Under the pieces are notes generated by a model. The model did not search any database. It saw nothing but the letters and a program-made list of their open reading frames with translations, and was not told the origin of the DNA. From contig CP109468.1 of assembly GCA_036227345.1 (NCBI GenBank), positions 1,054,001-1,118,000 on the forward strand: 64,000 nt of DNA. Reading direction: 5' to 3'. The position numbers and the translations under genes are program-made. The stretch comes from Streptomyces sp. NBC_01463 (GTDB taxonomy: Bacteria; Actinomycetota; Actinomycetes; Streptomycetales; Streptomycetaceae). Shown here one piece after another: positions 24,701 through 41,766 of this stretch (positions are counted from its first letter, which is position 1; each line of letters opens with the position of its first letter).

Positions 24701-24899
24701 ACCAGGGGCCGCCCCAGGTCCCGCCGGCCGTGAACGGTTCGTACACGGCGGTCAGGGCGTCGGCGACGGGCACGGGCTCGCCGTCGACGTGCCAGGCGGA
24801 CAGGGTGAGCGGGAGGGCGGAGGTGTACAGGGCGGGGCGGACGACGCGATCGAGCAGCGTGCGGATCCGCTGCTCGATGATCCGGCGTTCGTCGTGCAC
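21738..24899 (-). CDS. GH38 alpha-mannosidase, catalytic residues intact
   Basis: A 1053-residue cytoplasmic enzyme of glycoside hydrolase family 38. An N-terminal beta domain (1-245) precedes the catalytic barrel, with GHAHIDSAWLWP (zinc ligands His262, Asp264), WLPDSFGYTAAYPQ (nucleophile Asp374) and LNQFHDILPGSS (zinc His near 594); beta-sandwich domains make up the rest. It removes alpha-linked mannose from oligosaccharides taken into the cell. It starts with GTG 24899 behind AGGAAGGA. Last gene of the operon ThuA - Gfo/Idh - GH38 - GH38. Its end overlaps the cytX gene convergently. About 35-45 per cent similar by eye to the next gene upstream, so probably an old duplication. Confidence 0.9.
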   Translation of the reverse strand: MHDERRIIEQRIRTLLDRVVRPALYTSALPLTLSAWHVDGEPVPVADALTAVYEPFTAGGTWGGPWSTTWLRATARIPAAWAGRRVEAVFDLGFDLDRGPGGQAEGLVHDAHGSPLQGLHPYHRSVLLTDAATADSPVDLLIELAANPPIVGSAGLHTHHGSLETAGDDPLYRLEQAEIAVREDDVWHLIHDIEVLDELMHELPEGSSRRHEILHALRRAAAAVDPDDVPRSAAAARSRLAGVLSRPAHASAHTLSAVGHAHIDSAWLWPVRETVRKCARTFTNMTTMAREYPELVFACSSAQQYAWMKEQRPEIFARMRKAAADGTWVPVGGMWVEADGNLPGGEALARQLVMGRRFFAEEFGTEQDGVWLPDSFGYTAAYPQLARLAGAKWFLTQKLSWNETNKLPHHTFDWEGIDGTRIFTHFPPVDTYNASLSASENAHAEANFADKGVARRSLVPFGYGDGGGGPTRTMLEKARRLRDLEGSPKVEIVAPGRFFAEARAEQDRPPVWRGELYLENHRGTYTSQARTKRGNRRSEALLREAELWAATASVLAGAPYPYERLEAVWRRVLLNQFHDILPGSSIAWVHQQAEREYREIRAELEAMTGAAAGHLPGGPALLNAGPYARREVAVVAGGTGLPHAQQLSDGREAVLADVPALATGGTLGRPRQAVTARADDGGYVLDNGLLTVVVDSRGLVTSVYDRTARREAIAPGAAGNLLQIHPDDPNLWSAWNIDRYYRDTVHDLDEADSVTLTDAGPLLASVRVERTHRATTIVQHLELTAESRQLTVRTDIDWQERDAVLKAAWPLDVHAERESAEIQFGHVQRPTHENTSWDAARFELWAHRWVHVGERHWGAALLNDSTYGHDIGRDTREEDGGTTTTVRLSLLRAPHSPDPQADRGRHAFSYALLTGAGVEEAIAGGYALNLPLRPAPAEARALVTLDTTDVVVESVKLADDRSGDVIVRLYEACGGAVTARLTAGFPVAGIADCDLLEEPDQELMPPAEPGSGPPGPSSAELRMRPFQIRTLRLRPAGPGAGPSQERRLNRSGA

Positions 24900-24982: not shown

Positions 24983-27900
24983 TCAGGCGCGCGGCAGGCG
25001 CAACGTCACCATCTGGAAGGGCCGGAGGGACAGGACCACCCCGTCCCCCGCGGTGTCCGGTGGCCCGGCGTCGGCGATCGGGCGCTCCAGCAGATCCGTC
25101 ACGGCGGCCCGTCCGGCGGCGAAGGCGTCCGCCGTGACCGTGGCGCGGGCGCGTCCTCCGTTCGCCTCGTAGACCCGGACGACGAGGTCGCCGCTGCGGT
25201 CGTCCGCCAGCTTCACGGCGCTCACCACCACGGCATCGTTGTCAACGGTCACCAGCGGGGCCACCTCGGCGGAACCGGTCACCCGCCGTTCGGGCACGTT
25301 CACCCGGAATCCCTCGCGCACCGCGTCACCGATCGTCGCGCCCGGCACCAGCGCGTGCCGGAAGCGGTGGACGCCCTGGTCGGTCTCCGGGTCGGGGTAG
25401 CGCGGGGCGCGCAGCAGGGAGGCCCGCACGGTCGTCGTGGTGCCCTCGTCCGCGGTGCGCACCGAACGGCTGACGTCGTGCCCGTAGGTGGAGTCGTTGA
25501 CGAGGGCCACGCCCCAGCCCGGCTCGTCGAAGTGGACGAAGCGGTGGTTGCAGGCCTCGAACTTGGCCCACTCCCAGCTGGTGTTCTGGTGGGTGGGCCG
25601 GTAGGCGTGGCCGAACTGCGTCTCGGAGGCGTACCGGTCGGCCTTCACGTCCAGCGGGAAGGCCAGCTTCAGGAACTTCTCCGTCTCGTGCCAGTCCACC
25701 TCGGTGTCGATGTCGAGCCGTCTGACGTCGGCCGGAAGCGACAGGAGCTGGGTGACCCGGGAGTCGCCGAAGACGCGGACCACCCGCACCCCGTCCGCGT
25801 CGGCGGTCAGTTCGGCGACGTCGGTGAGGTCGCTGCCGACATTCCGGTAGAAGGCGTCGACGTCCCACGCGTCCCACTGGTTGGGGAAGTCCGGGTGGAG
25901 CTGGAGCAGGTTGGCCGCCTGATCCGGCGCGATCGTCTCCCGGCCCGCGGCGATGTCGTAGGCGGAGACCACCAGTCCCCTCGCGTCGATCTCGACCCGC
26001 AGGAGCCCGTTGTCGAGGACGTGGCCGCCGCCCTCGCGTGCGGTGGGGATGACCGGCCGGTCGTGGGCGGACGCGCCGGACGCGCCACCGGCCGGGACTC
26101 CGCCGCGGGTGTGCGGGGCCGCGTTGAACACGAGTTCCGTGGTGGCCGGTCCGACTCCGGCGAGCGCGCGCTGCGCGGCGGCGATGACCGCGCCGAGCTC
26201 CTCGGCGACGCGTGCGTAGGTGGCCCGTGCCTCCCGGTGGACCCACGAGGTCGAGGAGCCGGGCAGGATGTCGTGGAACTGGTGCAGCAGCACCGTCTTC
26301 CAGATCCGGTCCAGTTGCTCGTACGGGTACGGGGCGCCGGTCCGTACGGCCGCCGTGGCCGCCCACAGTTCGGCCTCCACGAGGAGGTGCTCGCTGCGCC
26401 GGTTGCCCTGCTTCGTCTGCGCCTGGCTGGTGAACGTGGCGCGGTGCAGTTCGAGGTACAACTCGCCGACCCAGACGGGCGGGTCGGGGTATTCGGCCTC
26501 GGCCTTCGCGAAGAAGGCGGCCGGCTCCTCCCACTCGACGATCGCCGATCCGTCCAGGCTGCGCATCCGGGCCGCCTTGGCGACCATCTCCCGCGTCGTG
26601 CCGCCGCCGCCGTCGCCGAAGCCTGTCGGCGCGAGGGAGCGGGTGGCGACCCCCTTCTCCTTGAAGTTCCGTGCGGCGTGGGCTATCTGACGGCCCGACA
26701 TTTCGCAGTTGTAGCTGTCGACGGGCGGGAAGTGGGTGAAGATCCGGGTTCCGTCGATGCCCTCCCAGTCGAAGGTGTGGTGCGGGAACTTGTTGGTGCG
26801 GTTCCACGAGATCTTCTGGGTGAGCAGCCACTTGGAGCCGGCCGCCTTGATGATCTGCGGCAGACCCGCCGCGAAGCCGAACGTGTCGGGGAGCCACGCC
26901 TCGTCGTTCTCGACGCCGAACTCGTCGAGGAAGAAGCGCTTGCCGTGCACGAACTGCCGGGACATGGCCTCGGAGCCCGGCATGTTGGTGTCGGACTCCA
27001 CCCACATGCCTCCGGCGGGTACGAACCTGCCCTCCGCGACGGCCTTCTTCACCCGGGCGTACACCTCGGGGCGGTGCTCCTTGATCCAGGCGAACTGCTG
27101 GGCCTGGGACATCGTGAAGACGAAGTCGGGCTCCTCCTCCAGCAGGGCCGTCATGTTGGAGGCGGTGCGGGCCACCTTCCGCACGGTCTCGCGCAGGGGC
27201 CACAGCCAGGCCGAGTCGATGTGGGCGTGGCCGACGGCGCTGATGCGGTGGGCCGTCGGCAGGGCGGGGGCGGCGAGCACCGCGGCCAGTTCCTGCCGGG
27301 CGGCCGCCGCCGTGGCGTTGACGTCCTGGAGGTCGACGGCGTCCAGGGCGTTGCTGACGGCGCGCAGGATCTCCCAGCGGCGTGCGCCGTCGAGCGGGAG
27401 TTCCGCCATGAGTTCGCCCAGGACCTCCAGGTCCATGACGAGGTTCCACACCGCCTCGTCGCGTACGGCCAGTTCCATCCGGCCGAGCACGTACTGCGGG
27501 GCGTCGCCCGCGGTCAGCCGGTCGCCCATGAGTGTGGGCTGGAACGGCACCCCGCCGGCTTCGAGATCGGGGTTGGAGGCCGCTTCGACGTGCCAGTGGA
27601 TCTGCTCGCCGCCGACGGCCGGGGAGGCGACGGGGACGTAGGAGTTGCGGGGGTGGAGTCCCTTGACCGGGGTGCCGTCGGGCCGGTGGACGAGCCCTTC
27701 GCACTGGAATCCCGGGGTGCGTGGGGAGAATCCGAGGTCGAGCACGGCCTCGACGGTGAGTCCGGCCCACTCCTCGGGCACCGTGCCGCCGACCCTGAAC
27801 CAGCTCGTCCCCCAGGGCGCGCCCCACGGCGTGCCCGCGGCGATGGGACGGGTGGGGGCCGCGATCCCCTCCGCCACGGAGACCGGCTCCCCCGTGGTGG

Positions 27901-28009
27901 ACCAGATCTCCACGTCGAGCGGGATGGTCCTGGGGTGGATCGCGGGGCGGATGCGCTCCCTGAGGACGCGCTCCAGACGATGTTCGACCAGTGTGCGGTC
28001 ATCGTGCAT
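24983..28009 (-). CDS. GH38 alpha-mannosidase, second copy, catalytic residues intact
   Basis: A 1008-residue GH38 enzyme with the same plan as its downstream neighbour: GHAHIDSAWLWPLRE near residue 265 (zinc His and Asp), WLPDTFGFAAGLPQ (nucleophile Asp), QFHDILPGSSTSWVH (zinc His), and the FPHHTFDWEGIDGTRIF segment. No signal peptide, so it acts on imported sugar. ATG 28009 has GGAG upstream. The two copies differ in the loops between catalytic segments, which suggests different linkage or chain-length preference rather than simple redundancy (inference). Confidence 0.9.
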   Translation of the reverse strand: MHDDRTLVEHRLERVLRERIRPAIHPRTIPLDVEIWSTTGEPVSVAEGIAAPTRPIAAGTPWGAPWGTSWFRVGGTVPEEWAGLTVEAVLDLGFSPRTPGFQCEGLVHRPDGTPVKGLHPRNSYVPVASPAVGGEQIHWHVEAASNPDLEAGGVPFQPTLMGDRLTAGDAPQYVLGRMELAVRDEAVWNLVMDLEVLGELMAELPLDGARRWEILRAVSNALDAVDLQDVNATAAAARQELAAVLAAPALPTAHRISAVGHAHIDSAWLWPLRETVRKVARTASNMTALLEEEPDFVFTMSQAQQFAWIKEHRPEVYARVKKAVAEGRFVPAGGMWVESDTNMPGSEAMSRQFVHGKRFFLDEFGVENDEAWLPDTFGFAAGLPQIIKAAGSKWLLTQKISWNRTNKFPHHTFDWEGIDGTRIFTHFPPVDSYNCEMSGRQIAHAARNFKEKGVATRSLAPTGFGDGGGGTTREMVAKAARMRSLDGSAIVEWEEPAAFFAKAEAEYPDPPVWVGELYLELHRATFTSQAQTKQGNRRSEHLLVEAELWAATAAVRTGAPYPYEQLDRIWKTVLLHQFHDILPGSSTSWVHREARATYARVAEELGAVIAAAQRALAGVGPATTELVFNAAPHTRGGVPAGGASGASAHDRPVIPTAREGGGHVLDNGLLRVEIDARGLVVSAYDIAAGRETIAPDQAANLLQLHPDFPNQWDAWDVDAFYRNVGSDLTDVAELTADADGVRVVRVFGDSRVTQLLSLPADVRRLDIDTEVDWHETEKFLKLAFPLDVKADRYASETQFGHAYRPTHQNTSWEWAKFEACNHRFVHFDEPGWGVALVNDSTYGHDVSRSVRTADEGTTTTVRASLLRAPRYPDPETDQGVHRFRHALVPGATIGDAVREGFRVNVPERRVTGSAEVAPLVTVDNDAVVVSAVKLADDRSGDLVVRVYEANGGRARATVTADAFAAGRAAVTDLLERPIADAGPPDTAGDGVVLSLRPFQMVTLRLPRA

Positions 28010-28088: not shown

Positions 28089-29177
28089 TCAGTCGCCGGC
28101 GGACTCCACGGGGGCCGGGCGCTCGCAGGTGCTCGTCACGGGGAGCGCCGTCCCCCGGTCCGCCGCGTCCATGAGCGTGAGCATGATGTCCAGGACGTGG
28201 GCGGCGAGTTCCGCGGAGGCCCGGTGCGGCCGCCCGGCCGCCAGGGCGTCGGCGAGGTCGGCGAGGCCGGTGCCGCGTCCGCCGTCCGGGTATCCGGCCG
28301 ATACGGGCAGCGTCTCCCATCCGCCGCCCCGGTGGATCTCGACAGGGCCGTCGAAGCCGTTCGGGTCGGGCACCGAGAGGGAGGCCGCGGTGCCGTGCAC
28401 CTCGATCCGCGGCAGCCGTGCGGCACGGACGTCGAAGCTCATCACGAGCGTGGACAGGGCGCCGCCGGCGTGTTCCAGGATGCCGGTGACATGGGTGTCC
28501 ACCTCGACCGGGAAGCGCTGTCCGGCACGCGGGCCGCTGCCGATCTCGCGTTCCGCGCGCGGCCGCGAGGAGGCTCCGGTCACCCGGACGACCGGGCCGA
28601 GCAGATGGACCAGCGCGGACAGGTAGTAGGGACCCATGTCGAGCAGGGGACCGCCGCCGGGCCGGTAGTAGAACTCGGGGTCCGGGTGCCAGGCCTCGTG
28701 GCCCGCGGTCGTCATGAACGCGGTGGCGGCGACCGGGGTGCCGATGAGTCCGTCGTCGACGGCCCTGCGCGCGGTCTGGGTGCCGGTGCCGAGGACGGTG
28801 TCGGGTGCGCAGCCCACCCGCAGTCCGTGTTCGCGCGCCGCCGCCAGCACGGTGCCGGCCTCCTTGCGGTCAGCGGCGAGCGGCTTCTCGCCGTAGACGT
28901 GCTTGCCTGCCCGCAGCGCGGCCAGGGCGACCTCGGCGTGGACGGCGGGCACGGTGAGGTTGAGGACCGCGTCCACGTCGTCCCGCGCCACCAGGCCGGC
29001 CACGTCCTCCACCACGGCCACCTCTCCGCCGGCTTCGGCGGCGGCCGCCTCGGCGCGGCCGCGGTCGAGGTCGGTGACGGCCGTCAGGCGTACGCCGGGC
29101 AGTCGTGCCAGTGTCGAGAGGTAGGCGCCGCTGATCTTGCCCGCGCCGACCATGCCGATCCTCAACGGCTCGCCCAC
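28089..29177 (-). CDS. Gfo/Idh/MocA-family oxidoreductase
   Basis: A 362-residue NAD(P)-dependent sugar oxidoreductase. The Rossmann motif is RIGMVGAGKISGAYLSTLA at the N-terminus, and GKHVYGEKPLA near residue 93 is the family's EKP signature. The C-terminal part (from about 130) is the GFO_IDH_MocA_C beta sheet. GTG 29177 is chosen because AGAGGGG lies at the right distance and it overlaps the end of the ThuA gene by 16 bases. With ThuA it resembles the ThuAB type of pair that oxidises the 3-position of disaccharides; here the substrate is probably mannose-containing (inference). Confidence 0.86.
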   Translation of the reverse strand: MGEPLRIGMVGAGKISGAYLSTLARLPGVRLTAVTDLDRGRAEAAAAEAGGEVAVVEDVAGLVARDDVDAVLNLTVPAVHAEVALAALRAGKHVYGEKPLAADRKEAGTVLAAAREHGLRVGCAPDTVLGTGTQTARRAVDDGLIGTPVAATAFMTTAGHEAWHPDPEFYYRPGGGPLLDMGPYYLSALVHLLGPVVRVTGASSRPRAEREIGSGPRAGQRFPVEVDTHVTGILEHAGGALSTLVMSFDVRAARLPRIEVHGTAASLSVPDPNGFDGPVEIHRGGGWETLPVSAGYPDGGRGTGLADLADALAAGRPHRASAELAAHVLDIMLTLMDAADRGTALPVTSTCERPAPVESAGD

Positions 29178-29821
29178 AGCAGTCCCCTCTCGGTGAGTGT
29201 GCGTACTTCCGGCACGTCGAAGTCGTCCGGCTTGTGGCCGATCGTCGAGACGAAGACACGGCCCCGGCCGCAGGTCCGGGTCCAGACGGCGGGCATCACG
29301 GCCGGGCGGTCGTGGGTCTCGCCGGCCGGGAAGGTCGTGGTGGCCAGGACGTCGACGAGCGGGTCGGTGGACATCCAGTACTGCTCGGTGTGGACGGTGA
29401 AGTCCTGGAGGCCGCTGATGACCGGGTGGCTCGCCTGCTCCGGGAGCAGGCGCACGGTGTGGTCGTGGTAGCCGGGCGGGTGCATGACGAACTGGCCGCC
29501 GGTCAGCATCTGGTAGTCGAGGTCGCCGCGGAAGGCGTCGACGATGCCGCCGTGCCATCCGGCGAGTCCGGTGCCGGCCCGGACCGCGGCGGACAGTCCC
29601 GCGGTCTGCTCGCGGGTGATGGTTCCCATGGTCCAGCACTGCACCACCAGGTCGGTGGCGGCGAGGAGTTCGGCGTCCTCGTAGACCGCGAGGTCCTCGG
29701 CGGTCTCGACGGCGAAGCCCTCCTCCTTGAGGAACGGGAGGAACAGGTCGGTGATCGTGACGGGCTGGTGCCCGTCCCAGCCACCACGGACGACGAGCGC
29801 CCTTCGGGTGTCGGTGCTCAA
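29162..29821 (-). CDS. ThuA-domain protein (trehalose-utilisation family)
   Basis: A 219-residue protein of the ThuA fold, related to class I glutamine amidotransferases but lacking their catalytic cysteine. RALVVRGGWDGHQP at the start, GLAGWHGGIVDAF near residue 86 and VFVSTIGHKPDDFDVPEV near 188 are typical. ThuA proteins work next to Gfo/Idh oxidoreductases in sugar catabolism, perhaps on 3-keto sugars. It is the first gene of the four-gene mannosidase operon. Promoter near 29997-30026 leaves a leader of about 170 bases. Confidence 0.83.
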   Translation of the reverse strand: MSTDTRRALVVRGGWDGHQPVTITDLFLPFLKEEGFAVETAEDLAVYEDAELLAATDLVVQCWTMGTITREQTAGLSAAVRAGTGLAGWHGGIVDAFRGDLDYQMLTGGQFVMHPPGYHDHTVRLLPEQASHPVISGLQDFTVHTEQYWMSTDPLVDVLATTTFPAGETHDRPAVMPAVWTRTCGRGRVFVSTIGHKPDDFDVPEVRTLTERGLLWASR

Positions 29822-30026: not shown

Positions 30027-30104
30027 GGGGCCATACGAATAGGGCCGGCCGTCACTCGCGTCCCGCCGTCACGGCGGAACGGACCGTAGCCATCGGCAGC
30101 TTCC

Positions 30105-30123
30105 GGAAAGTAAATAGCCTGAC
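30105..30123 (+). promoter_or_regulatory. 19-base motif, candidate ROK-type operator (copy 1)
   Basis: GGAAAGTAAATAGCCTGAC matches GGAAAGTAATTCACTTGAC at 36984-37002 in 15 of 19 positions. The two lie in the control regions that flank the ROK/pseudo-mannosidase operon and the GH99-like gene, so the ROK hybrid regulator is the likely binder (inference). Confidence 0.5.
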
Positions 30124-30133
30124 ATATCACCTC

Positions 30134-30260: not shown

Positions 30261-31523
30261 ATGGCCCTCTCCAGACGTGCCCTCATCCGGTCCGCACTCG
30301 CCACCACCGCCGGCGCGGGCATCATCGCCGGAGGCCGTGCCGCCTACGGCACCTCCCCCTCGGCCCCGCGGGTCTCGGCGAGCGGACCCGGCGACGTCGT
30401 CGGGAAGATCACCGTCGGCTACCAGGGCTGGTTCGCGTGCAAGGGCGACGGAGCGCCGATCGACGCCTGGTGGCACTGGGCCCCCAACTCGCAGAACGCG
30501 CCCTCGCCCACGAACAAGGGCATCAAGTCCTGGCCGGACGTGCGGGAGTACTCCCGCACCTACCCGACGGACTTCCCCGGCCTCGGCGGCGGAGCGCCCG
30601 CGGCCCTGTTCTCGTCGTACGACCAGCAGTCCGTGGACACCCACTTCGCCTGGATGCGCGACCACGGCATCGACACGGCCGCGCTCCAGCGCTTCAACCC
30701 GTACGGCTCCGAGGGCCCCACCCGCGACGTCATGGCGCAGAAGGTGCGCCAGGCGGCGGAGGCCACCGGCCGGAAGTTCTACATCATGTACGACGTCAGC
30801 GACTGGACGTCGATGCAGTCGCAGATCAAGGAGGACTGGACGTCGAAGATGCGGGCGCACACCGCCTCCGGCGCGTACGCGGTCCAGAACGGCAAGCCGG
30901 TCGTGTGCATCTGGGGCTTCGGCTTCAACGACAACCAGCGGCCCTTCGAACCCGCCCCCTGCCTGGATGTCGTCAACTGGTTCAAGAACCAGGGCTGTTA
31001 CGTGATCGGTGGCGTCCCGACCCACTGGCGCAAGGGCGAGGGGGACTCCAGGCCCGGGTTCTCCGACGTCTACCACGCGTTCGACATGCTCTCCCCGTGG
31101 ATGGTGGGGCGCATCGGCAGCGCAGCGCAGTCCGACGAGTTCTTCGCCAACGTGAACACACCCGACCAGGCGGACTGCGACGCCCACGGCATCGACTACC
31201 AGCCGTGTGTCATGCCGGGTGACCTCCAGGAACGGCACCGGGCGCACGGCGACTTCATGTGGCGGCAGTTCTACAACATGGTGCGGGTCGGCGCGCAGGG
31301 CATCTACATCTCGATGTTCGACGAGTACAACGAGGGCAACCAGATCGCCAAGACCGCCGAGAGTGCCGCCCAGGTGCCCGCCGGCTCCGGCATCTGGGCC
31401 CTCGACGAGGACGGCACCAGCTGCTCGTCCGACTACTACCTGAGGCTGACCGGCGACGGCGGCCGGATGCTGAAGAAGGAGATCGCCCTGACGGCCACCC
31501 GGCCCACGCCGCCGCGGGTCTGA
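30261..31523 (+). CDS. Tat-exported glycoside hydrolase, GH71/GH99-like
   Basis: A 420-residue secreted protein. The N-terminus LSRRALIRSALATTAGAGII is a twin-arginine signal, with cleavage expected near residue 30-36. The mature part starts VGKITVGYQGWFACKGDGAP and contains DAWWHWAPN, DHGIDTAALQRF, and ISMFDEYNEGNQI near the C-terminus, a layout shared with bacterial proteins annotated as family 71/99-like. Family 99 includes endo-alpha-mannosidases, which would suit the mannosidases next door: outside cleavage, import, then trimming. ATG 30261 follows AAGGAG. Catalytic residues cannot be assigned with confidence by eye. Confidence 0.75.
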   Translation: MALSRRALIRSALATTAGAGIIAGGRAAYGTSPSAPRVSASGPGDVVGKITVGYQGWFACKGDGAPIDAWWHWAPNSQNAPSPTNKGIKSWPDVREYSRTYPTDFPGLGGGAPAALFSSYDQQSVDTHFAWMRDHGIDTAALQRFNPYGSEGPTRDVMAQKVRQAAEATGRKFYIMYDVSDWTSMQSQIKEDWTSKMRAHTASGAYAVQNGKPVVCIWGFGFNDNQRPFEPAPCLDVVNWFKNQGCYVIGGVPTHWRKGEGDSRPGFSDVYHAFDMLSPWMVGRIGSAAQSDEFFANVNTPDQADCDAHGIDYQPCVMPGDLQERHRAHGDFMWRQFYNMVRVGAQGIYISMFDEYNEGNQIAKTAESAAQVPAGSGIWALDEDGTSCSSDYYLRLTGDGGRMLKKEIALTATRPTPPRV

Positions 31524-31567: not shown

Positions 31568-33736
31568 CTACTGGCCCTCCCGTCCGCGCAGCCGCGGGGT
31601 GAAGGTGGCGTGGAAGATGGTCGAGGCGGCGCCCACGGCCGCCGCCTCGGCGCTCAGCACGGACGGTTCGACCTCGACCCTGCGCAGCCGCCGGGCGGTG
31701 GGGAAGTCGTTGACCATGCGGCTGATCTCCTCCAGGTAGAAGCCCGCGACGTCGTCCGTGAAGAACGGGCCGCCGAGCACCAGCAGGTCGATGTCCAGCA
31801 GGTCGACGAGGCCGAGCGCGCCCTGCCCCACGGCCCTGGCCACCGCCCGGACGGCCGCGGTCGCGGCCGGGTCACCGGCCGCCGCCGCGGCCGCGACCGT
31901 GCGGTAGCCGGGGTTCTCCCGGTCCAGGCCGCCGCGCACCGCGAGATCCGGCACCGAGAACGGCGGGTTGCACTCGGGCAGGATCTCCGGCCGGCCCTCC
32001 GCGTCGACCCGGCCGAGCGCGATCGCGCAGAGCTGCCCGAACTCACCCGCGTTCGCGCTGACTCCCCGGTAGAGGTCACCGTTGAGATAGAGACCGGTGC
32101 CGACTCCCGTACCGAGGTAGATGTACGCGAAGTCCCTGGCCCTGCGGTCCCGGCCGGTCCAGCGCTCCCCCGCGGCTGCCGCGGTGGAGTCCTTCTCGAT
32201 GATGACCGGACAGGGGAACCGTTCCTGGAGGAGGTACTGCAGGGGCAGGTCGTGCCAGGCGGACATCAGGGGCGGCGCGAGGACCGTGCCCGAGGCGATG
32301 TCCACGGGGCCCGGAACCGCGACCCCCACGCCCAGGAAGCCGTCGTCGCGCACCGCCCCCTGTGCCTGTTCCAGCGTCCTGCGGCCCAGCTCCGCCACCT
32401 GCTCGACGAACTCGCCGGGCTCGGTGTCCGGGGCGACGGGCCGGCTGCGGGTGCAGACGATCGCTCCGTCGAGGTCGATGACGACCGCGGTGATCACCTC
32501 GGGGTCGATGTGCATGCCCAGCGCGTGCGCCGCGCTTCCGCGCAGCCGGACGGGGGTGCGCGGTTTGCCGGACGTGCCGCGGCGCTGGGCGTCCTCGATG
32601 AGGATGCCGCGGTCGAGCAGGGAGCGGGCGATGCGGGAGACGGACTGCTGGGTCAGGCCGGTGCGGTGGGCGATCTCCCCGCGGGTGATGGTCCCCGCGA
32701 GCCGTACGGCCTCGATGACCACGCACTCGTTGAACGAACCGAGATCGATCTGGTTGACGCCGCTCGCCGACTGCGCGGGCTGTGCGGGGCCGTGAGCGGC
32801 GGGCTCGCCCCGCAGGCGTCCCGCGACCGTCTCGCGCAGCCAGCTGACCGGCGCGGGCCGGCCGTACCGCTCCAGGGCCGCGACCAGGTCGAGGTAGACG
32901 CGCCGGGACGACTCCGGGTGCCGGGTCGAGTCGAGTGCGGCCATCGCGCCCACGAAGCTGCGCCAGCTGGAGCGGGCCGGCGGCCGGTGCCAGGTCACGG
33001 ACCCGCCGTGCGGACCGGCCGCGGGCGGCGCCTCCTCCCGGTCCCAGAGCATCACCGCGTGCAGGGCGATGTCCGGATGGCTCTCTGCGGCCGCGGCGAG
33101 GTAGCCGGCCAGGTCCCGTCCGGAGGCGTCGGCGTCCGGTGACGTGGTGAGCGACGGTGCCGGGGCGTCGTGTGCGGCGACCAGCGCCCGGTCCAGTCCG
33201 TCCAGCACGTCCTGGCCGATCGGGGTGTCCGCGACCGCCGCGGCGGCGGGCGGCCTGGTCCCGATGAGCAGGACCGCCCGCAGCGGGTCGACGTACAGCC
33301 CCATCACCCACACCTCGGCGCAGGGCAGGGGCGGGCGCGTCGGCACCTGGGGTGCCGGGGACTCGTCCGGGTTCAGCCGCCAGCGGCGGCGGACGGCGGC
33401 CACGGTGGCGTGCGACAGGCCGAGTTCGCGGGCCACGGCACGGGTGGCGCCACTGGATCCGGGCGCGAGGAGTGCGCGGCTGACGACCTCCCCCTCGTCC
33501 ACCGTGACCGGTCTTCCGGTCCGCGGCCGTTGCTCCAGACCGTCCAGCCCCGAGGTCTGCCAGCGGTGGCGCCAGGTGCCCACGGTCTGCCTCGACACCC
33601 CGAGCCGCCGCGATATCTCGGCGTCCCGCAGCCCGCCGGCCACGAGCAGGACGACCCGCGCGCGGATGGCGAGGGGGCCGCTGCTGCTCTCCCAGCGGCG
33701 CAGCACGGCCCGGGTTTCGGGTTCGAGGTCAGGCAC
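31568..33736 (-). CDS. Hybrid regulator: degenerate IS630-type transposase domain fused to ROK repressor
   Basis: A 722-residue protein in two parts. Residues 1-125 hold two HTH units (LRDAEISRRLGVSRQTVGTW near 36-55 and ARELGLSHATVAAVRRRW near 102-119) and the linker DGLEQRPRTGRP, as at the start of IS630/Tc1 transposases. Residues 140-290 follow the transposase DDE core in outline (VMGLYVDPLRAVLL; WHRPPARSSWRSFV in place of HFTPTSSSWxNQVE), but no catalytic acid is kept. Residues 328-400 are a ROK winged helix (GEIAHRTGLTQQSVSRIARSL), and 405-722 a ROK sugar domain (GVGVAVPGPVD, YLGTGVGTGLYLNGDL) without the usual CxCGxxGCxE zinc motif. It starts at GTG 33736 behind GGAGG and overlaps the pseudo-mannosidase stop by 8 bases. 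Confidence 0.8.
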   Translation of the reverse strand: MPDLEPETRAVLRRWESSSGPLAIRARVVLLVAGGLRDAEISRRLGVSRQTVGTWRHRWQTSGLDGLEQRPRTGRPVTVDEGEVVSRALLAPGSSGATRAVARELGLSHATVAAVRRRWRLNPDESPAPQVPTRPPLPCAEVWVMGLYVDPLRAVLLIGTRPPAAAAVADTPIGQDVLDGLDRALVAAHDAPAPSLTTSPDADASGRDLAGYLAAAAESHPDIALHAVMLWDREEAPPAAGPHGGSVTWHRPPARSSWRSFVGAMAALDSTRHPESSRRVYLDLVAALERYGRPAPVSWLRETVAGRLRGEPAAHGPAQPAQSASGVNQIDLGSFNECVVIEAVRLAGTITRGEIAHRTGLTQQSVSRIARSLLDRGILIEDAQRRGTSGKPRTPVRLRGSAAHALGMHIDPEVITAVVIDLDGAIVCTRSRPVAPDTEPGEFVEQVAELGRRTLEQAQGAVRDDGFLGVGVAVPGPVDIASGTVLAPPLMSAWHDLPLQYLLQERFPCPVIIEKDSTAAAAGERWTGRDRRARDFAYIYLGTGVGTGLYLNGDLYRGVSANAGEFGQLCAIALGRVDAEGRPEILPECNPPFSVPDLAVRGGLDRENPGYRTVAAAAAAGDPAATAAVRAVARAVGQGALGLVDLLDIDLLVLGGPFFTDDVAGFYLEEISRMVNDFPTARRLRRVEVEPSVLSAEAAAVGAASTIFHATFTPRLRGREGQ

Positions 33737-36700
33737 CGGTACCTCCGACGGCCAGGCGCAGGGTGAGGATCTGGAAGGGGCGCAGGCACACGGTGACGTC
33801 GCCGTCGTGATGGGGGTGTCCGGCGAGCGGCCGCTCCAGGAGGTCCGTCTCGCACACGGATGCCAGGGCGAATCCCGCGGTGAGCGTGGTGCGGGCGCGT
33901 CCGCCGCGCGCCTCGTAGAGCCGCACGACGACATCGCCGGAGTGGTCGTCCGCCAGTTTGACCGCTTCGACGACGACATCGGGGTGATCGACGGCGAGCA
34001 GCGGGCGGGCGGACCGGCCGGGCCTGAGCGGCAGATCGAGGCGGTATCCCTCGGTGATCGCGTCGCCGGGGTCCGCGCCCGGCCTGAGCGTGTGGCGGAA
34101 GAGCTGCGGCCCCCGGTCGGCGTGCGGGTCCCGGCCCTGCCCGGCGCCGAGCAGGGTGAGCCGGAGGGTGGTGGTGGAGCCGCCGTCGTCGCGCGTCCGC
34201 CGTACGACGTCGTATCCGTGGCCGGTGTCCGAGGCGAGGGCTACGCCCCAGCGGTGCTCGCCGATGTGCAGCCAGCGATGGGTCCGGTGCGCGGCGGCTA
34301 CGTCGGTGGCATGCCCGGCGAGTCCGAACGCGATGTCTCCCAGGACGTGTTCCGCGTGGACGTCGAGGGGCCACAGCGACTGAAGCGCACTGTCCCGCTC
34401 CCGCCAGTCGATGGCGGTGTCGATCGCGAGGGCGTGACCGCCGGCCGCCAGGGACAGTTCCTGTACGACGGTGGAGCGCCCCGTGGTCCGTTCCACCCGG
34501 AGCCGCACCATCAGCGGGCCCTCGTCGGTGAGCCGTACGCTCAGCGCCTCGGTGAGGTCCCGGCCGGCGCGGCCGGGCCCGGGAGGCCGGCCGGCCGGGC
34601 CGTCCGGCCGGAGCCGGAGGAGGTTGCCGAGGCGGCCGGGGGCGATGGCGTCGCGGCCGGTGGCCAGATCGCACACGGAGCCGACCAGGCCACGGGCGTC
34701 GACGCGGACCGATGTCAGCCCGTTGGCCAGGAGGTATCCGCCGTCCGGCGTGCGCCGGACGGTGACCGGTGGGGTGCCGTCGAGCGGCAGCCCCGCCCGG
34801 CCGGTCCCGAGTGCGGGTGCCTCGGCGAGATGCGCCCGGCGCCCGTCGGCCAGGTCCTGGCCGTGCGGGATCAGGGGGTCGGCGTCGACGACGACCACTT
34901 CGCGGCGGTCGTACGGGGCCGCGTTGAGCACCGCCGGTCCGTCGGCGGGTCCGTTGACGCGACGGATCAGGGCCTCCAGCCGGCGGTGGATGTCGCGGTG
35001 CTCCAGCTCGGTCTCCTGGTGGACCCAGGAGATGCCCGTCCCGGCGGCGACGTCCTGCGCCTGGTGGAGCAGGACCCGCTTCCAGAGGGTGTCGATCTCC
35101 TGGTACGGATAGGGCACACCGCCGTGGACGGCCGCTGTCACCGACCACAGTTCGGCCTCGCGCAGCAGCGCCTCCGCCCGGCGGTTGCCGCGCTTGGTGC
35201 GGGCCTGCGCGGAGTAGGTGCCGTGGTGGGCCGCGAGGCGGAGCTCTCCTCGGTGCGCCGGGAGGGATCCGTCGTCCATTGCGGTGCCGTCGCTGCTGTC
35301 GCCGCCGACGAGGTACTTGAAGGCATCCGCGGGACGGCCCATGGTGACGCGCGGTGATCCTTCGAGGTCGTGGAGCCTGCGGACCGCCTCAAGCAGCTCC
35401 CGGGTGGGGACCGCCCCGCCCGCCCCGGACGCGCCGAGGGGCAGCAGCGCGGGAGCCTCGGGTCCGGCCTCGACGGCCGACGCGGCGGCCGATCCGATGG
35501 CGGGTCCGAGAGCGGCCGGCCCGGTGCCGTCCGGGTCCGCGGGGGCGAGGCGGCACGGGATGCGGGTCCCGTCGATGCCCTCCCAATGGAACGCGGCGCC
35601 GGGCGGGACGGCGATCCCTTCGGCCGGTGTCTTCCCCGCCGCTGCCGGGGCGAGGAGCCAGCGGGCCCCGGCGAGGGCCGCGAGTTGCGGAAGCGCCCCG
35701 TTCAGCTCCGGCGCGGCGGGCAGCCAGACGCCGTCGGTGTCCACGGCGAACTCGTCGCGGAAGAAGCGGTGTCCGTGGACGAACTGCCGGACCAGTGACT
35801 CGCCGCCCGGGACGCCCGGGTCGGCCTCGACCCACATGCCGCCGACCGGCGCCCAGTTGCCGTCGGCGACCGCCTTGCGTATCCGTTCGAAGATGTGCGG
35901 CTGATGGTCGCGCATCCAGGCGTAGTGCTGGGCCGACGAGGCGGCGAAGACCAGCTCCGGATACTCCTCGGCGAGGCTGACCGCGGTGGCGAAGGCCCGT
36001 GAGGCCCGGCGTATCGACTCATGCACCGGGAGCCGGCCGGTGTCGACGCGGGCGTGCCCGAAGGCGATCACCGGCTGCGCCGACTCATGGGCCCTGCGGG
36101 CCAGTTCGGGGGCGAGGAGCGTACGGGCCCGGTGCACGGTGCCCGCGATGTCCTGGGGGTCGACGGCGTCGGCGGCCCGGACGAGGGCGGTACGGATGCG
36201 GTGCCGGCGCGGCTCGGCCGCGGGGAGTTCGCGCATGAGCCGGCCGAGGGTCTCGATGTCGTGGATGAGCTGCCAGACGCCCTCGTCGCGTACGGCGAGG
36301 TCGGCGGCCCGGAAGCGGTACAGCGGTTCGCCGCCGGCGGTGGCCGGGTTCCCGAACCGGGCCGCGGGGCCGTGGCGGGTGTCCACGAACGGGGTGGCGG
36401 CGGCCTCGACGAGCAGGCGTATGCGCTCTCCGCCGTCCGCCGCCGCGCTGATGGTGACGGGCTCTCCCCCGCCGTGCAGTCCCTGGAGCGGGATGCCGGA
36501 CGCGTCGTGGACCAGCGCCTCGGCCGGACGGGCGGGCCCTGCGGCGGGGTCGCCGGAGCCGAGGTCGACGAGCGCCTCGACACGTCGCCCGGCCCAGCGT
36601 TCGGGCACCCGGGCCTCGAGCCGGAACCAGGTGGTGGACCAGGGCCGGCCCCAGTCGTCGCCGGCCAGAAAGGGTGCGTAGCCGGCCCGCAGCGCGATCC

Positions 36701-36836
36701 GTACGGGAACGGGCTCCCCCGGCGCCTGCCATGCGCCGATATCGAGGGGAATCCGCTGCGGGTGCAGTGCGGGGCGCAGGATTCCGTCGAGGAAGCGGGA
36801 AATGCGGTCCTCTTCGGCGGTCCACCGGTCATGCAT
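33729..36836 (-). CDS. GH38 pseudoenzyme: alpha-mannosidase homologue without catalytic residues
   Basis: A 1035-residue protein that lines up with the two active mannosidases along its whole length (same start MHDxx, GGMWVEAD, WEGIDGTRI, SAQARTKRGNRRAEALLREAELW, and the C-terminal sandwich). At the active site GHAHIDSAW is GHARVDTGR (zinc His263 to Arg), WLPDSFGY is WLPAAPEL (nucleophile Asp374 to Ala), and QFHDILPGS is QAQDVAAGT (zinc His594 to Gln). Only Asp265 of the four is kept. The frame is intact, with normal codon use, so it is a maintained protein rather than a decaying gene. It probably binds sugar without cutting it. ATG 36836 follows GGGAGGG; it overlaps the ROK gene. Confidence 0.85.
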   Translation of the reverse strand: MHDRWTAEEDRISRFLDGILRPALHPQRIPLDIGAWQAPGEPVPVRIALRAGYAPFLAGDDWGRPWSTTWFRLEARVPERWAGRRVEALVDLGSGDPAAGPARPAEALVHDASGIPLQGLHGGGEPVTISAAADGGERIRLLVEAAATPFVDTRHGPAARFGNPATAGGEPLYRFRAADLAVRDEGVWQLIHDIETLGRLMRELPAAEPRRHRIRTALVRAADAVDPQDIAGTVHRARTLLAPELARRAHESAQPVIAFGHARVDTGRLPVHESIRRASRAFATAVSLAEEYPELVFAASSAQHYAWMRDHQPHIFERIRKAVADGNWAPVGGMWVEADPGVPGGESLVRQFVHGHRFFRDEFAVDTDGVWLPAAPELNGALPQLAALAGARWLLAPAAAGKTPAEGIAVPPGAAFHWEGIDGTRIPCRLAPADPDGTGPAALGPAIGSAAASAVEAGPEAPALLPLGASGAGGAVPTRELLEAVRRLHDLEGSPRVTMGRPADAFKYLVGGDSSDGTAMDDGSLPAHRGELRLAAHHGTYSAQARTKRGNRRAEALLREAELWSVTAAVHGGVPYPYQEIDTLWKRVLLHQAQDVAAGTGISWVHQETELEHRDIHRRLEALIRRVNGPADGPAVLNAAPYDRREVVVVDADPLIPHGQDLADGRRAHLAEAPALGTGRAGLPLDGTPPVTVRRTPDGGYLLANGLTSVRVDARGLVGSVCDLATGRDAIAPGRLGNLLRLRPDGPAGRPPGPGRAGRDLTEALSVRLTDEGPLMVRLRVERTTGRSTVVQELSLAAGGHALAIDTAIDWRERDSALQSLWPLDVHAEHVLGDIAFGLAGHATDVAAAHRTHRWLHIGEHRWGVALASDTGHGYDVVRRTRDDGGSTTTLRLTLLGAGQGRDPHADRGPQLFRHTLRPGADPGDAITEGYRLDLPLRPGRSARPLLAVDHPDVVVEAVKLADDHSGDVVVRLYEARGGRARTTLTAGFALASVCETDLLERPLAGHPHHDGDVTVCLRPFQILTLRLAVGGTGA

Positions 36837-36866
36837 GACTGCCCTCCCTGTCCAGGCGTAACAGCC

Positions 36867-36895
36867 ATGTAAAACCATGTGTGTTATCAAGTCAA
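36867..36895 (-). promoter_or_regulatory. Promoter E, pseudo-mannosidase/ROK operon
   Basis: Minus strand: TTGACT (36895-36890), 17-base spacer, TTACAT (36872-36867); the predicted start lies near 36860. TGGCTGTTACGCC follows at once, resembling TGGCTGTTCGCC after promoter A. The segment is unusually AT-rich for this genome. Confidence 0.55.
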
Positions 36896-36983
36896 CGCTT
36901 ACTCCCCTGACATTCCTATGCCTGGTCCTGACCTGCGGAAGAGGCTTTGTCAGGCAATTAAATAAACACCATGGGCTCATTTC

Positions 36984-37002
36984 GGAAAGTAATTCACTTG
37001 AC
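36984..37002 (+). promoter_or_regulatory. 19-base motif, candidate ROK-type operator (copy 2)
   Basis: GGAAAGTAATTCACTTGAC, 15 of 19 identical to 30105-30123. It lies about 90 bases upstream of promoter E, in the AT-rich gap between the enolase-family gene and the pseudo-mannosidase gene. A related GTCAGGCAATTAAAT stands at 36949-36963. Confidence 0.5.
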
Positions 37003-37062
37003 CATTCCGCACGGAAAAGGGGCGGCCGGGTGGCCGCCCCTCGCGGTGCCGGGTCCCCTCGG

Positions 37063-38438: not shown

Positions 38439-39233
38439 TCAGTGCTGCCCGAGTCTCTTGATCAGGGTCCGCAGCGAATGGGCCGCGTCGGTGACGGTCC
38501 GGGCGATCTCCGCCATCCGCACATCGTCCATCCTGCTGCGGGGCGCGGAGCAGGAGATCGCGTCGCCGCCGCCGTGCGCCGCGTCCAGTGCGACGGCCAC
38601 GCAGCGGATGTCCACCGAGTTCTCGCCGTCGTCGCTGGCCCACCCGCGCAGCCGCGCCTCGGCGAGCTGGGCGACGAGCGCGTCCGGGTCGGTCACGGTG
38701 TCCGGAGTGAGCTGCTCCAGCGGCCAGTTGAGCCTGCGCTGGACCTCCAGGGCGTCGTACTGCGAGAGCACGGCCTTGCCCAGCGCCGTGGCGTGGGCCG
38801 GCAGCCGGCGGCCGACCGCCGAGTGCATGCGAAGGGCGTGCCGGGACTCGCGTTTGGCCAGGTAGACGATGTCCGTGCCGTCGAGCCTGCCGAGGTGGAC
38901 GGTCTCACCCGTCTCCTCCGCGAGGCTGTCGAGCACCGGTCCCGCGAGGCTCGCGACGTCGTCCCCCTCCAGATAGGCGGTGCCGGTCAACAGCGCCTTG
39001 AGGCCCAGGCTGTAGCGCGTCCCCGAGGGGTCGACGTCCACCCAGCGGTGCGCCTCCATCGTCCGCAGAATCGCGTGCAGACTGCTCTTCGGCACCGCCA
39101 TGGCCTGGGCCATCTCCGCGAGGGAGAGCAACGCGCCTTCCGCCCCGAGGAGTTCCAGGACCTCCAGCACCCGAGCTGCGGACTTGACCTCTTCCGGCTT
39201 GCGCGCCCGCGCCGTTCCCGCCACCGATTCCAC
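38439..39233 (-). CDS. IclR-family transcriptional regulator
   Basis: A 264-residue regulator: winged helix at about residues 15-75 (SAARVLEVLELLGAEGALLSL, MAVPKSSLHAILRTME) and the IclR effector domain after it (ETVHLGRLDGTDIVYLAKRE, GRRLPAHATALGKAVLS, and VDIRCVAVALD). It stands between the enolase-like gene and the divergent ABC transporter genes, both of which carry the same 14-base motif, so it probably controls both. GTG 39233 is used because CGGAGG lies 5 bases upstream; another GTG is further up. The effector is likely a sugar acid or sugar. Confidence 0.87.
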   Translation of the reverse strand: MESVAGTARARKPEEVKSAARVLEVLELLGAEGALLSLAEMAQAMAVPKSSLHAILRTMEAHRWVDVDPSGTRYSLGLKALLTGTAYLEGDDVASLAGPVLDSLAEETGETVHLGRLDGTDIVYLAKRESRHALRMHSAVGRRLPAHATALGKAVLSQYDALEVQRRLNWPLEQLTPDTVTDPDALVAQLAEARLRGWASDDGENSVDIRCVAVALDAAHGGGDAISCSAPRSRMDDVRMAEIARTVTDAAHSLRTLIKRLGQH

Positions 39234-39298
39234 AGAACCTCCGCTCACGCACCGGCGCCCTACGGCCCTCCGGACGACCACCAATTCTCAACTGTCTC

Positions 39299-39382: not shown

Positions 39383-40771
39383 ATGCGTACTCCATTCTCC
39401 AGAAATATCCGTTTCGTGGCCCTTGCCACAGCGACCGTGCTCTCGGCCGGCTCCCTTGCCGCCTGTGGCGGCTCCTCCGGCTCCGGCGACTCCAAGTCCC
39501 TCACCATGTGGACGTTCAAACAGTCGCACGTCACCGGACTCCGGCACGCTGCGGCGGAGTTCAAGAAGAAGACCGGCATCGACGTGAAGATCCAGGCATA
39601 CACGCCGGACGACGCGTACGCCACGAAGATCCAGAGTTCGGCGAAGACCGGCAACCTGCCCGACGTACTGGAGATCCACTCCGACGGTGAGGAGCGGGTC
39701 TTCGGCGCGGCCGGGATCGTCTCCGACTTCGCCGGCGACTTCAAGGGCGCCTGGGCCGACCGCATCCAGCCGGCCGTCAAGGAGTCGGGGCTCATCACCG
39801 AGGCCCGGTTCAAGGACGCCGAGCCCAAGACCGCCAAGGACCACGGCATCGTGAAGGGCGCCCGCTACAGCGTGCCCCTCACCGTCGGCACCTTCGGCAC
39901 GGTCTACGCCAACAAGAAGAAGCTCGCCGCCGCCGGAATCACGAAGGCCCCGGCCACCTGGGAGGAGTTCCTCGCCGCACTCAAGGCGACCAAGGCCAAG
40001 GACAGCGCGTCCGGAGGGCTCTCGCTCGGCCTCAAGGTGCAGTCCACCGGACTCACTTGGGTGCTTCAGCCGCTCGCCTTCGCCCAGCTCGGCCAGCAGG
40101 GGTACGAGAAGCTGTTCGGCAAGGACAAGAGCGCCGACTTCAGCTCCCCGAACGGCCTCAAGGTCCTGTCGATGTACAACGAGCTCACGCCGTACTGGAT
40201 GGCCGGCAGCCAGAGCCTGACCATCGACCAGGCCGACCAGGCGTTCGCCCAGGGGAAGTCCACCTTCAACATCGGCGGTACCTTCACGCTCGCCTTCCTC
40301 AAGGAGAACGGCATGAAGCCCGAGGACGTCCTCGCGTTCGGGCTGCCCGCTCCCGAGAACGGAGCCGTGCCCGACCGGGCCCTGGGCGCCCTCGCCCTCA
40401 CCGGGCTCAGCGTCACCGCGACCAGCAAGCAGCCGGACAACGCCAAGAAGTGGATGCAGTTCCTCTCCGAGCCGAAGGTCGCGGCGGACTTCGCCAAGGA
40501 CGCGTCCGACATTCCCGCCACCGAGCTGGGCGCCGACTCCGCCAAGGTGCTGGGCCCCACGCTCACCGCGCTGGTCGAAAGCACCAAGGGCACCCCGCAG
40601 AACACCTACGACCCCGCCCGGGGCAACGAGTTCCGCGCGCCCGGCTACGAGCAGGACGACGCGGGCACCATCCTCGCCGACCTGACCCCGCTGAAACAGT
40701 TCACCGTTCCGGAGACCGCGAAGAAGCTCAGTGAACTGAACGCGGCGTACTGGAAAGCGGCCGGCCAGTGA
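39383..40771 (+). CDS. Sugar ABC transporter substrate-binding lipoprotein
   Basis: A 462-residue extracellular binding protein of the MalE-like cluster. The signal peptide ends in the lipobox LAACGGSS (Cys near residue 29), so the protein is anchored by lipid. The mature protein begins [20 protein letters not shown] and has [19 protein letters not shown] near the C-terminus, both typical. First gene of the operon: binding protein, two permeases, a uronate-dehydrogenase-like enzyme, and then the secreted beta-helix protein. It is preceded by TAGGTAGGG as ribosome site. The cargo is probably an oligosaccharide released outside the cell. Confidence 0.9.
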
Positions 40772-41766
40772 CGCTCGCTTCCCGGCCGGCGGAATCGGGA
40801 ACGGCCGGGGGCGGGAGCAGGAGCCCGCTCCCGGCCGGGGCACCGGCACCGCTCCGCACGAGGCGTCGCCGGATCGGCGCCGAGGCGGTCAGCGGCTACC
40901 TGTTCGTCGCACCCGCCGTGATCCTGTTCTGCGTCCTGGGCCTGTACACCGTCGGCTACGGCTTCCTGCTCTCCTTCGCCACCTGGAACGGCTTCACCCC
41001 GAACTGGACCTGGGTCGGCCTGGACAACTACGCCGACCTGCTGTGGCGCGACCCGGTCTACGCCCCGCGGCTGCGCCACGCGGCCCTCAACACCCTGTAC
41101 GTGATGCTCGCCGCCCCTGCCCTGACGGTCCTGGTGTCGTTCCCGCTGGCCGTCCTGCTCAACCAGGTCAAACGGCTGCAGACCGTGCTGCGTTCGGTGT
41201 ACTTCCTGCCGTACGTCACCAGCGGCATCGCGGTCTTCTTCGCCTGGCAGTACATCCTCCAGCCGGACGGCGCCATCAACTCCCTGCTGGACTCCCTGGG
41301 GCTCGGCTCGCTCCAGCAGCCGCAGGGCTGGCTGGGCAATCCCACCACCGCGATGCCCACCATGATCATGGTGACGGTGTGGGGGCACGTCCCGGTGGCG
41401 ATGCTGCTGTACCTGACGGGACTGCAGGGCATCGACCGCAGCGTGCTGGAGGCCGCGCAGCTGGACGGCGCGGGCTGGTGGCGCACCAACGCGTCGGTGA
41501 TCTGGCCGCTCGTACGCCCGATCACCGCCATCGTGGTGCTGCTCAACCTCCGTGAGTCGTTGCAGGGGTTCCAGACCTTCCTGGTGATGACCAACGGCGG
41601 TCCCGGTGACCACACCAACGTGATGGGTCTCGAGGCCTACCGGCTGGCCTTCCTCAAGAACCTGTCGCCCACCCTGGGCCTGGCCAGCGCACTGGGCTGG
41701 ATCCTCTTCGCCCTGGCCCTCGTCCTGGCCCTGATCAACCTGCGAGCGCTGCGGAGCAAGACATGA
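40768..41766 (+). CDS. Sugar ABC transporter permease (MalF-like)
   Basis: A 332-residue membrane protein with six hydrophobic segments after a polar, Arg-rich N-terminus of about 45 residues. The EAA loop that docks with the ATPase is LEAAQLDGAGWWRTNASVIW near residue 228. GTG 40768 overlaps the binding-protein stop. There is no ATPase gene in the window; streptomycetes usually supply a shared one, MsiK. Confidence 0.9.
   Translation: MTLASRPAESGTAGGGSRSPLPAGAPAPLRTRRRRIGAEAVSGYLFVAPAVILFCVLGLYTVGYGFLLSFATWNGFTPNWTWVGLDNYADLLWRDPVYAPRLRHAALNTLYVMLAAPALTVLVSFPLAVLLNQVKRLQTVLRSVYFLPYVTSGIAVFFAWQYILQPDGAINSLLDSLGLGSLQQPQGWLGNPTTAMPTMIMVTVWGHVPVAMLLYLTGLQGIDRSVLEAAQLDGAGWWRTNASVIWPLVRPITAIVVLLNLRESLQGFQTFLVMTNGGPGDHTNVMGLEAYRLAFLKNLSPTLGLASALGWILFALALVLALINLRALRSKT

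Follow-up and report, generated by a model that had tools for sequence, protein, structure and literature searches.

Can a sugar-sensing regulator of a bacterium carry a captured transposase as an extra DNA-binding arm? The question is raised by one gene of Streptomyces sp. NBC_01463, in which a reading made from the DNA letters alone (the sequence-only reading) had seen a ROK regulator fused to a dead IS630-type transposase. We analysed this gene within a stretch of 64,000 nucleotides (the window), to which the coordinates below refer. ORF translation and Pfam searches confirmed the two described parts, and the ORF from 33736 to 31568 is predicted to encode one protein, in which a full-length dead IS630-type transposase precedes a complete ROK regulator. 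The gene and its parts, all on the minus strand, were as follows:

31568..33736 (-): IS630-ROK fusion gene, 722 aa, GTG start at 33736, stop included
33536..33670 (-): HTH 1, IS630-type, residues 23-67 (Pfam HTH_23, 59 bits)
33509..33523 (-): GRP linker RTGRP, residues 72-76, read from the sequence
33377..33448 (-): HTH 2, residues about 97-120 (Pfam HTH_32 at 51-113, HTH_50 at 97-116; aligned with IS630 HTH 2)
32807..33361 (-): residues 126-310, comprising the eroded DDE core with the tail; T160, L230 and G263 at the triad positions (profile alignment)
32762..32806 (-): variable linker, residues 311-325 (no invariant column among 15; pooled dN/dS of 1.2)
32600..32731 (-): ROK winged helix, residues 336-379 (Pfam MarR_2; 32 of the 70 columns of 326-395 invariant)
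31622..32497 (-): ROK sugar domain, residues 414-705 (PF00480, 113.4 bits against a cut-off of 22.9)

The start residue of the ORF was matched by the homologues P0003 and P0005. The protein was present as a single copy in its own genome (9.07 Mb in two contigs), and the nearest named relative found was Streptomyces brevispora, with 88% identity over residues 1-325.

Ancestry and decay of the transposase arm

Pfam placed HTH_23, HTH_29 and HTH_28 inside residues 23-82 and HTH_32 at 51-113, and none of the best 25 of the 36 families listed matched residues 126-310. Since DDE_3 (PF13358) was absent from the listed Pfam matches and the NCBIfam IS630 model NF033545 reached 60.4 bits at residues 25-83, under its cut-off of 100, the transposase core appears too eroded for standard annotation. 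By profile-profile alignment (hhalign), the fusion family (55 rows used of 74) was compared with a diverse IS630 profile of six rows, chosen from 19 candidate frames for having an SSWxNxxE-like motif. As the sequence-only reading had expected of the N-terminal part, arm residues about 4-301 were collinear with IS630 from HTH 1 through the tail (score 222, E 4e-31), and the P-x-x-SSW segment that it had placed at the IS630 SSW position did fall there, the RSSW of the fusion lying opposite SCSWLNLVE. An earlier IS630 profile (18 rows, mostly near-alike) gave a weak score of 31.9 with the core alone and was superseded by the six-row profile. Against the latter the arm without its HTHs scored 46.2 (E 2e-6), in an alignment limited to residues about 202-301, and 100 column shuffles of this HTH-less arm reached at most 18.8. 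The control, the ROK half against IS630, attained 36.8 through HTH-to-HTH similarity, so the core-only score is supportive, not decisive. We regard the full-length score and the collinearity as decisive for the transposase ancestry read from these profiles.

Conservation was examined in 74 aligned members, 33 of them from loci including the window and 41 from the 120 listed homologues. The linker residues G74, R75 and P76 were invariant in all rows. No member carried an acid at any triad position, which bears out the claim that every expected catalytic acid had been replaced; an acid within two residues of position 230 was found in 49 of the 74. The DDE core had been described as kept in outline. 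That description held for the collinear alignment, tail included, and failed in the middle of the core, which is degenerate and variable in length: 54-332 residues separated its two flanking motifs (both present in 115 of the 120 listed homologues), which makes an intact RNase H fold in the arm doubtful. The arm is thus, as far as alignments can tell, a full-length IS630 transposase by descent and catalytically dead. The longest separations, 271-332 residues, were insertions in P0087, P0090, P0099 and P0104, from Streptomyces niveus and relatives.

Constraint was uneven along the arm, with 26 of 118 columns invariant in the HTH part against 14 of 185 in residues 126-310. The pooled dN/dS of the DDE remnant was 0.67 against 0.49, 0.21 and 0.33 for the other domains, i.e., the remnant evolves faster; these values come from a simple count method over 528 GC-rich and partly saturated pairs and serve for ranking.

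Among PDB sequences the ROK half matched Lmo0178, Mlc and other ROK structures. The ROK zinc motif CxCGxxGCxE, already reported missing in the sequence-only reading, was present in 0 of the 74 members, and the DND segment was replaced by EKD in all 74 clade-1 rows. Four examined rows of a second clade (see below) had lost the zinc motif too. The nearest unfused ROK proteins, L131 and L132, retained both the motif and the DND segment; two distant unfused ROK proteins of the same genome as the window, L005 and L006, were also without the motif. Its loss is therefore not unique to the fusions, and by these alignments it goes with the fusion among close kin.

Spread of the fusion and other apparent captures

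Both parts lay in one frame in 34 of 40 fetched relatives; four of the others ended at contig ends and two had frame changes. (A 41st fetched locus, L049, was an unrelated ROK and was left out; in L029, L030 and L039 the match consisted of two same-frame pieces.) The two frame changes within the fusion gene, in L040 and L021, each came from a single draft genome. The sequence-only reading had named homologues with two separate genes, joined here by a sequencing error, as the finding that would overturn it. The relatives keep one frame instead, and an artefact of sequencing or assembly, already refuted by them, retains a practically negligible probability.

The carriers belonged to Streptomyces, Actinacidiphila, Streptacidiphilus, Catenulispora, Actinospica and Nonomuraea, in four actinobacterial families, and the search of other actinomycete genomes also revealed a second, divergent fusion clade (G010, G377, G285, G078 and G271). 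Separate trees of the two halves (13 clade-1 and 4-5 clade-2 members) both grouped the fusions together, with support of 100/99 and 100/100, and showed identical main branching with small internal differences. Because the two trees match, the data fit a single old fusion event, probably followed by mostly vertical descent. The profile alignment, the loss of the triad, the same-frame relatives and the matching half-trees together support the transposase-ROK fusion. In plasmid records, no single place covering 80% of the protein was found, and carriage of the fusion on plasmids was rejected.

Dead IS630 arms were also found on GntR/FCD regulators (L122:2103-3893 (+), L130:703-2487 (-) and L134) of a few Streptomyces genomes. 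The arms of L122 and L130 branched among true transposases, apart from the ROK fusions (support 84/99 at the open fork), and this position points to an independent transposase capture. Other GntR/FCD proteins presented the IS630 HTHs alone in front (L127:285-1451 (-), L128 and L129; about 385-390 aa from the chosen starts), a type for which the Pfam evidence comes from L127. The idea that GntR fusions are common was rejected: among 197 genomes only G219 and G218 were found with that query, and G411 came from a separate search.

The transposase half might be functionless debris carried along by chance, as its weaker constraint relative to the rest of the protein and the insertions of up to 332 residues between the flanking motifs would suggest. 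Several families have nevertheless preserved it in the same frame and with HTH residues that do not vary, and GntR regulators apparently recruited a similar arm separately; we consider debris highly improbable.

Two candidate operators at the locus

The surroundings of the fusion gene contained the following genes:

33729..36836 (-): GH38 alpha-mannosidase (Pfam, run from 36869; start 36836 placed by comparison)
30261..31523 (+): secreted protein that we take to be GH99-like
29162..29821 (-): ThuA-domain protein (Pfam)
28089..29177 (-): Gfo/Idh/MocA oxidoreductase (Pfam)
24983..28009 (-): second GH38 alpha-mannosidase (Pfam)
21738..24899 (-): third GH38 alpha-mannosidase (Pfam)
38439..39284 (-): IclR regulator, a rival binder of the dyad described below (Pfam)
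39383..42638 (+): sugar ABC transporter genes, SBP and two permeases (Pfam)

All these neighbours were inside 21.7-42.6 kb of the window. The end of the first GH38 gene overlaps the start of the fusion gene by 8 nt, and a GH38 gene was immediately upstream of the fusion in 29 of the 40 fetched loci. Given this and the surrounding GH38 and sugar genes, the locus likely serves alpha-mannoside use. The GH99-like gene had no Pfam, NCBIfam or PDB match; it was kept next to the regulator in many loci.

Upstream of the GH38 gene, and before the GH99-like gene, we located these putative regulatory elements:

36866..36896 (-): promoter GTTGACTTGATAACACACATGGTTTTACATG, with -35 TTGACT, a 17 nt spacer and -10 TTACAT
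36870..36886 (-): 17-bp pseudo-palindrome inside the spacer, kin of TAAATCCAnTGGATTTA, proposed ROK site
36948..37003 (-): 56-bp dyad built on half-site TGTCAn4AATTA, to which the transposase arm is proposed to bind
30092..30124 (+): candidate second operator before the GH99-like gene, one strong half-site (dyad model R1)

The promoter element GTTGACTTGATAACACACATGGTTTTACATG scored 27-31 of 31 in 30 of the 33 main-branch sequences, window and L095 included; the remaining three (L023, L025 and L048) end at contig ends. Scores were 17-24 of 31 in the Catenulispora/Streptacidiphilus branch, where 17 equals background, and 21-22 of 31 beside the unfused ROKs L131 and L132. From these two loci and the divergent fusion L121 we built the idealised palindrome TAAATCCAnTGGATTTA. 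In L161, the locus of an unfused ROK fetched after the definition, 15 of 16 positions matched, and in the other four divergent fusion loci 12-13 did (5 of 5 counting L121, which helped to define it); no score of L161 or of the divergent fusions was equalled by any of 60 shuffles. All 15 further ROK loci (L003-L008, L162-L169 and L172) were no better than shuffles, among them L172, the nearest unfused ROK of the same genome as the window, whose lack of the palindrome counts against the model. In L123 the palindrome was downstream of the fusion gene, ahead of the next gene. We propose the 17-bp palindrome as the putative natural site of the ROK winged helix.

The dyad consists of TGTCAnnnnAATTAnnnnCCG plus its mirror image and lies upstream of GTTGACTTGATAACACACATGGTTTTACATG. 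Its half-site has three conserved blocks about 9-10 bp apart, as might suit a bipartite arm. In a scan with a 20-base half-site, 26 of 37 sequences reached at least 24 of 38 matching positions, and 23 of the 26 shared one spacing (in one of these 23, L039, at a GH99-like promoter); the remaining 11 had 20-22 matches. As controls, 19 downstream stretches gave 19-24 matches, the top four being at GH99-like promoters, and five window tiles gave 19-20. The motif that served to find the dyads had first been noticed at GH99-like promoters, and their symmetry was partly selected for. In the 9.07-Mb genome dyad model R1 matched best at the GH38 promoter (E 1e-8), which had been used in training, and second best at the GH99-like promoter (E 0.05), a match that is not fully independent given the origin of the locating motif.

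Over 391 genomes of the order, scanned with stricter filters that lose weak matches, the dyad model reached E of at most 0.001 in five, all of them fusion carriers, and in none of the 375 genomes outside the clade-1 fusion carriers. Among the 16 genomes with a clade-1 fusion, counted from the listed fusion matches, the dyad model reached this level in five of six from the main branch and in 0 of 10 from the other. Three of the five genomes had supplied training sites (G000, G221 with L019, and G303 with L042); G282 and G377 had not. The sixth main-branch carrier, G393, had a 54-bp dyad immediately in front of its fusion gene (L095, 17 bits). Counting against the model, no dyad as such was found in the Catenulispora/Streptacidiphilus branch, which presented shorter GTCA-type repeats ahead of the ROK-like element instead, and the predicted operator layout of this branch differs from that of the main branch. 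The ROK-like element with GTCA-type repeats was also seen before another glycosidase-like gene (secreted, named by eye) in L034 at about 2210-2360 and in L037 at about 5380-5530. At the loci of the unfused L131 and L132 the dyad model listed nothing. We rejected the idea that the half-sites are relics of IS630 ends: seven presumed terminal-repeat arms from four loci scored at most 0.1 against at least 13.8 for true sites (one arm was beaten by just 14 of 500 shuffles, the other six by 47 to 306).

The distance between the centres of dyad and palindrome was nearly fixed. Over 22 loci it measured 97.5 bp in 14, 98.5 in four, 96.5 in three and 95.5 in one; it was 94.5 bp in L039, L047 and L095, and 130.5 bp, longer by some three helical turns, in L020, L022 and L045, where the dyads were recognised by eye from the kept outer TGTCA/TGACA and 56-bp length. 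The 130.5-bp spacing of the iranensis branch counts against a fixed-spacing model. The near-fixed distance otherwise suggests that one complex could occupy both sites. In L019, L039, L047 and L095, which have no GH38 gene in between, both elements immediately preceded the fusion gene; their position is thus tied to the regulator rather than to the enzyme gene. Conservation of the dyad proves little by itself, because in 14 loci of equal length the spacer was nearly as conserved (0.92 bits against 1.10 bits). The two distinct DNA-binding modules proposed by the sequence-only reading thus receive indirect support, from two conserved elements at a near-fixed distance, one common to unfused ROKs and the other seen with fusions only.

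The dyad accompanies the fusion, yet in five of the six dyad genomes the IclR regulator is a confounder. The dyad could be the operator of this neighbour, the arm then having another DNA target or none. An IclR orthologue was encoded, at the same locus, in exactly the five of 391 genomes with a dyad-model match, with 81-86% identity in the four besides our own and 50% for the next best listed. On the other side, G393 combines the fusion and its 54-bp dyad with a best IclR match of 46% identity, L039, L047, L020, L022 and L045 had dyads and no IclR orthologue in the locus DNA examined, and no dyad was listed at E up to 5 between the IclR gene of the window and the divergent transporter. We hold an IclR operator to be unlikely.

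Still somewhat less likely, in our judgement, is an arm that serves for dimerisation or tetramerisation, with the ROK winged helices or another factor reading the entire promoter and its dyad. ROK regulators act as oligomers, and a helix and the tail in residues 126-310 are conserved (the 14 of 185 invariant columns) around a relaxed middle of the core, as such a device would allow. The best-conserved residues of the arm, however, are those of the HTHs (26 of 118 columns), and TGTCAn4AATTA is unlike the ROK palindrome and has no listed match at L131 and L132. The arm itself is favoured as the dyad binder by that silence of the dyad model at L131 and L132, which do share the ROK site, by the dyads without an IclR orthologue, in G393 and in the examined locus DNA of two branches, and by the lack of a listed dyad at the IclR promoter of the window.

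We consider it probable that a domesticated dead IS630 transposase forms the N-terminal arm of a ROK repressor of an alpha-mannoside locus, with the ROK part on the promoter and the arm on the dyad. By occupying the 17-bp palindrome that separates -35 from -10, the ROK winged helix would block transcription. The two HTHs of the arm would recognise the paired half-sites of the 56-bp dyad upstream, in which TGTCA and AATT lie about one helical turn apart, a distance that would be expected of a bipartite arm. Since both modules reside in one polypeptide, an oligomer could hold palindrome and dyad together over about 97.5 bp, so that a stable repressor complex with a loop or bridge would form on the GH38-regulator promoter. 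The arm would also mark the GH99-like promoter, and the fusion gene would regulate its own expression. Release would come from a mannoside-derived sugar in the ROK domain, with signalling perhaps altered, as the zinc motif is lost.

Known systems and related proteins

Animals offer well-known examples of transcription factors that arose from transposases, and IS630 is kin to Tc1/mariner. SETMAR is a host protein fused in frame to a mariner-type transposase; PAX proteins kept only the DNA-binding part of a transposase. When the arm was searched against PDB sequences, SETMAR was the best match (E 5e-4) and the PRD paired domain the third (E 0.37, not significant). The paired domain of PAX proteins, similar to the DNA-binding domain of Tc1-like transposases, is held to be transposase-derived and merged with another DNA-binding domain (PMC4901127). 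Paired domain and homeodomain thus resemble arm and ROK as two DNA-binding domains in one protein; PAX proteins are from animals, whereas the ROK fusion retains the whole transposase length and has a sugar-sensing regulator as partner. SETMAR targets transposon ends and represses bound loci (PMC8327481); it is human, and the candidate operators of the ROK fusion are unlike the IS630 ends tested.

NagC, Mlc, Lmo0178 and RokB share the winged helix and ROK domain of the fusion, which differs from them by the transposase arm, the far-upstream dyad and the lost zinc motif. For RokB of S. coelicolor, the binding site spans 28 bp and includes an inverted repeat (PMC4856308). IS630 transposases have two HTHs, GRP linker, core and tail collinear with the arm, whereas the fusion is joined to a regulator, has no triad acids, stays under the NF033545 cut-off and has no DDE_3 match. 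TldR proteins, derived from TnpB, are likewise regulators held to come from an inactivated mobile-element protein; they belong to another protein family. They are RNA-guided transcription factors of bacteria or phages (PMC13418256). Judged by sequence, the protein is a host-transposase fusion regulator and not a working IS630, and within the ROK family it is a regulator without the zinc motif.

A 2022 review of recruited prokaryotic mobile elements describes regulators derived from phages and toxin-antitoxin systems in the text available to us, in which the term IS630 is absent (PMC8987985), and in titles and abstract beginnings of open-access PMC articles we found no report of a transposase fused to a ROK or GntR regulator. 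We lean slightly towards viewing the fusion as a bacterial counterpart of PAX and SETMAR, in which a transposase captured once would have become a fixed-length DNA bridge over a ROK site and a dyad about 97.5 bp off, and the same kind of transposase would have been captured again by GntR regulators. If true, transposase capture would repeatedly have given actinobacteria new transcription factors. With donor family, receiving family, nearest unfused kin and two candidate operators identified, the contribution of the arm to the regulator is directly testable.

The genome of the window strain had one DDE_3 match, an IS630; it and L050, a stand-alone dead relative, were 38-42% identical to the arm. 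Stand-alone degenerate IS630-like proteins of about 275-350 aa were found at L050:399-1301 (-), L110, L112 and L116, with one in the genome of the window strain, and are possibly another domesticated regulator family.
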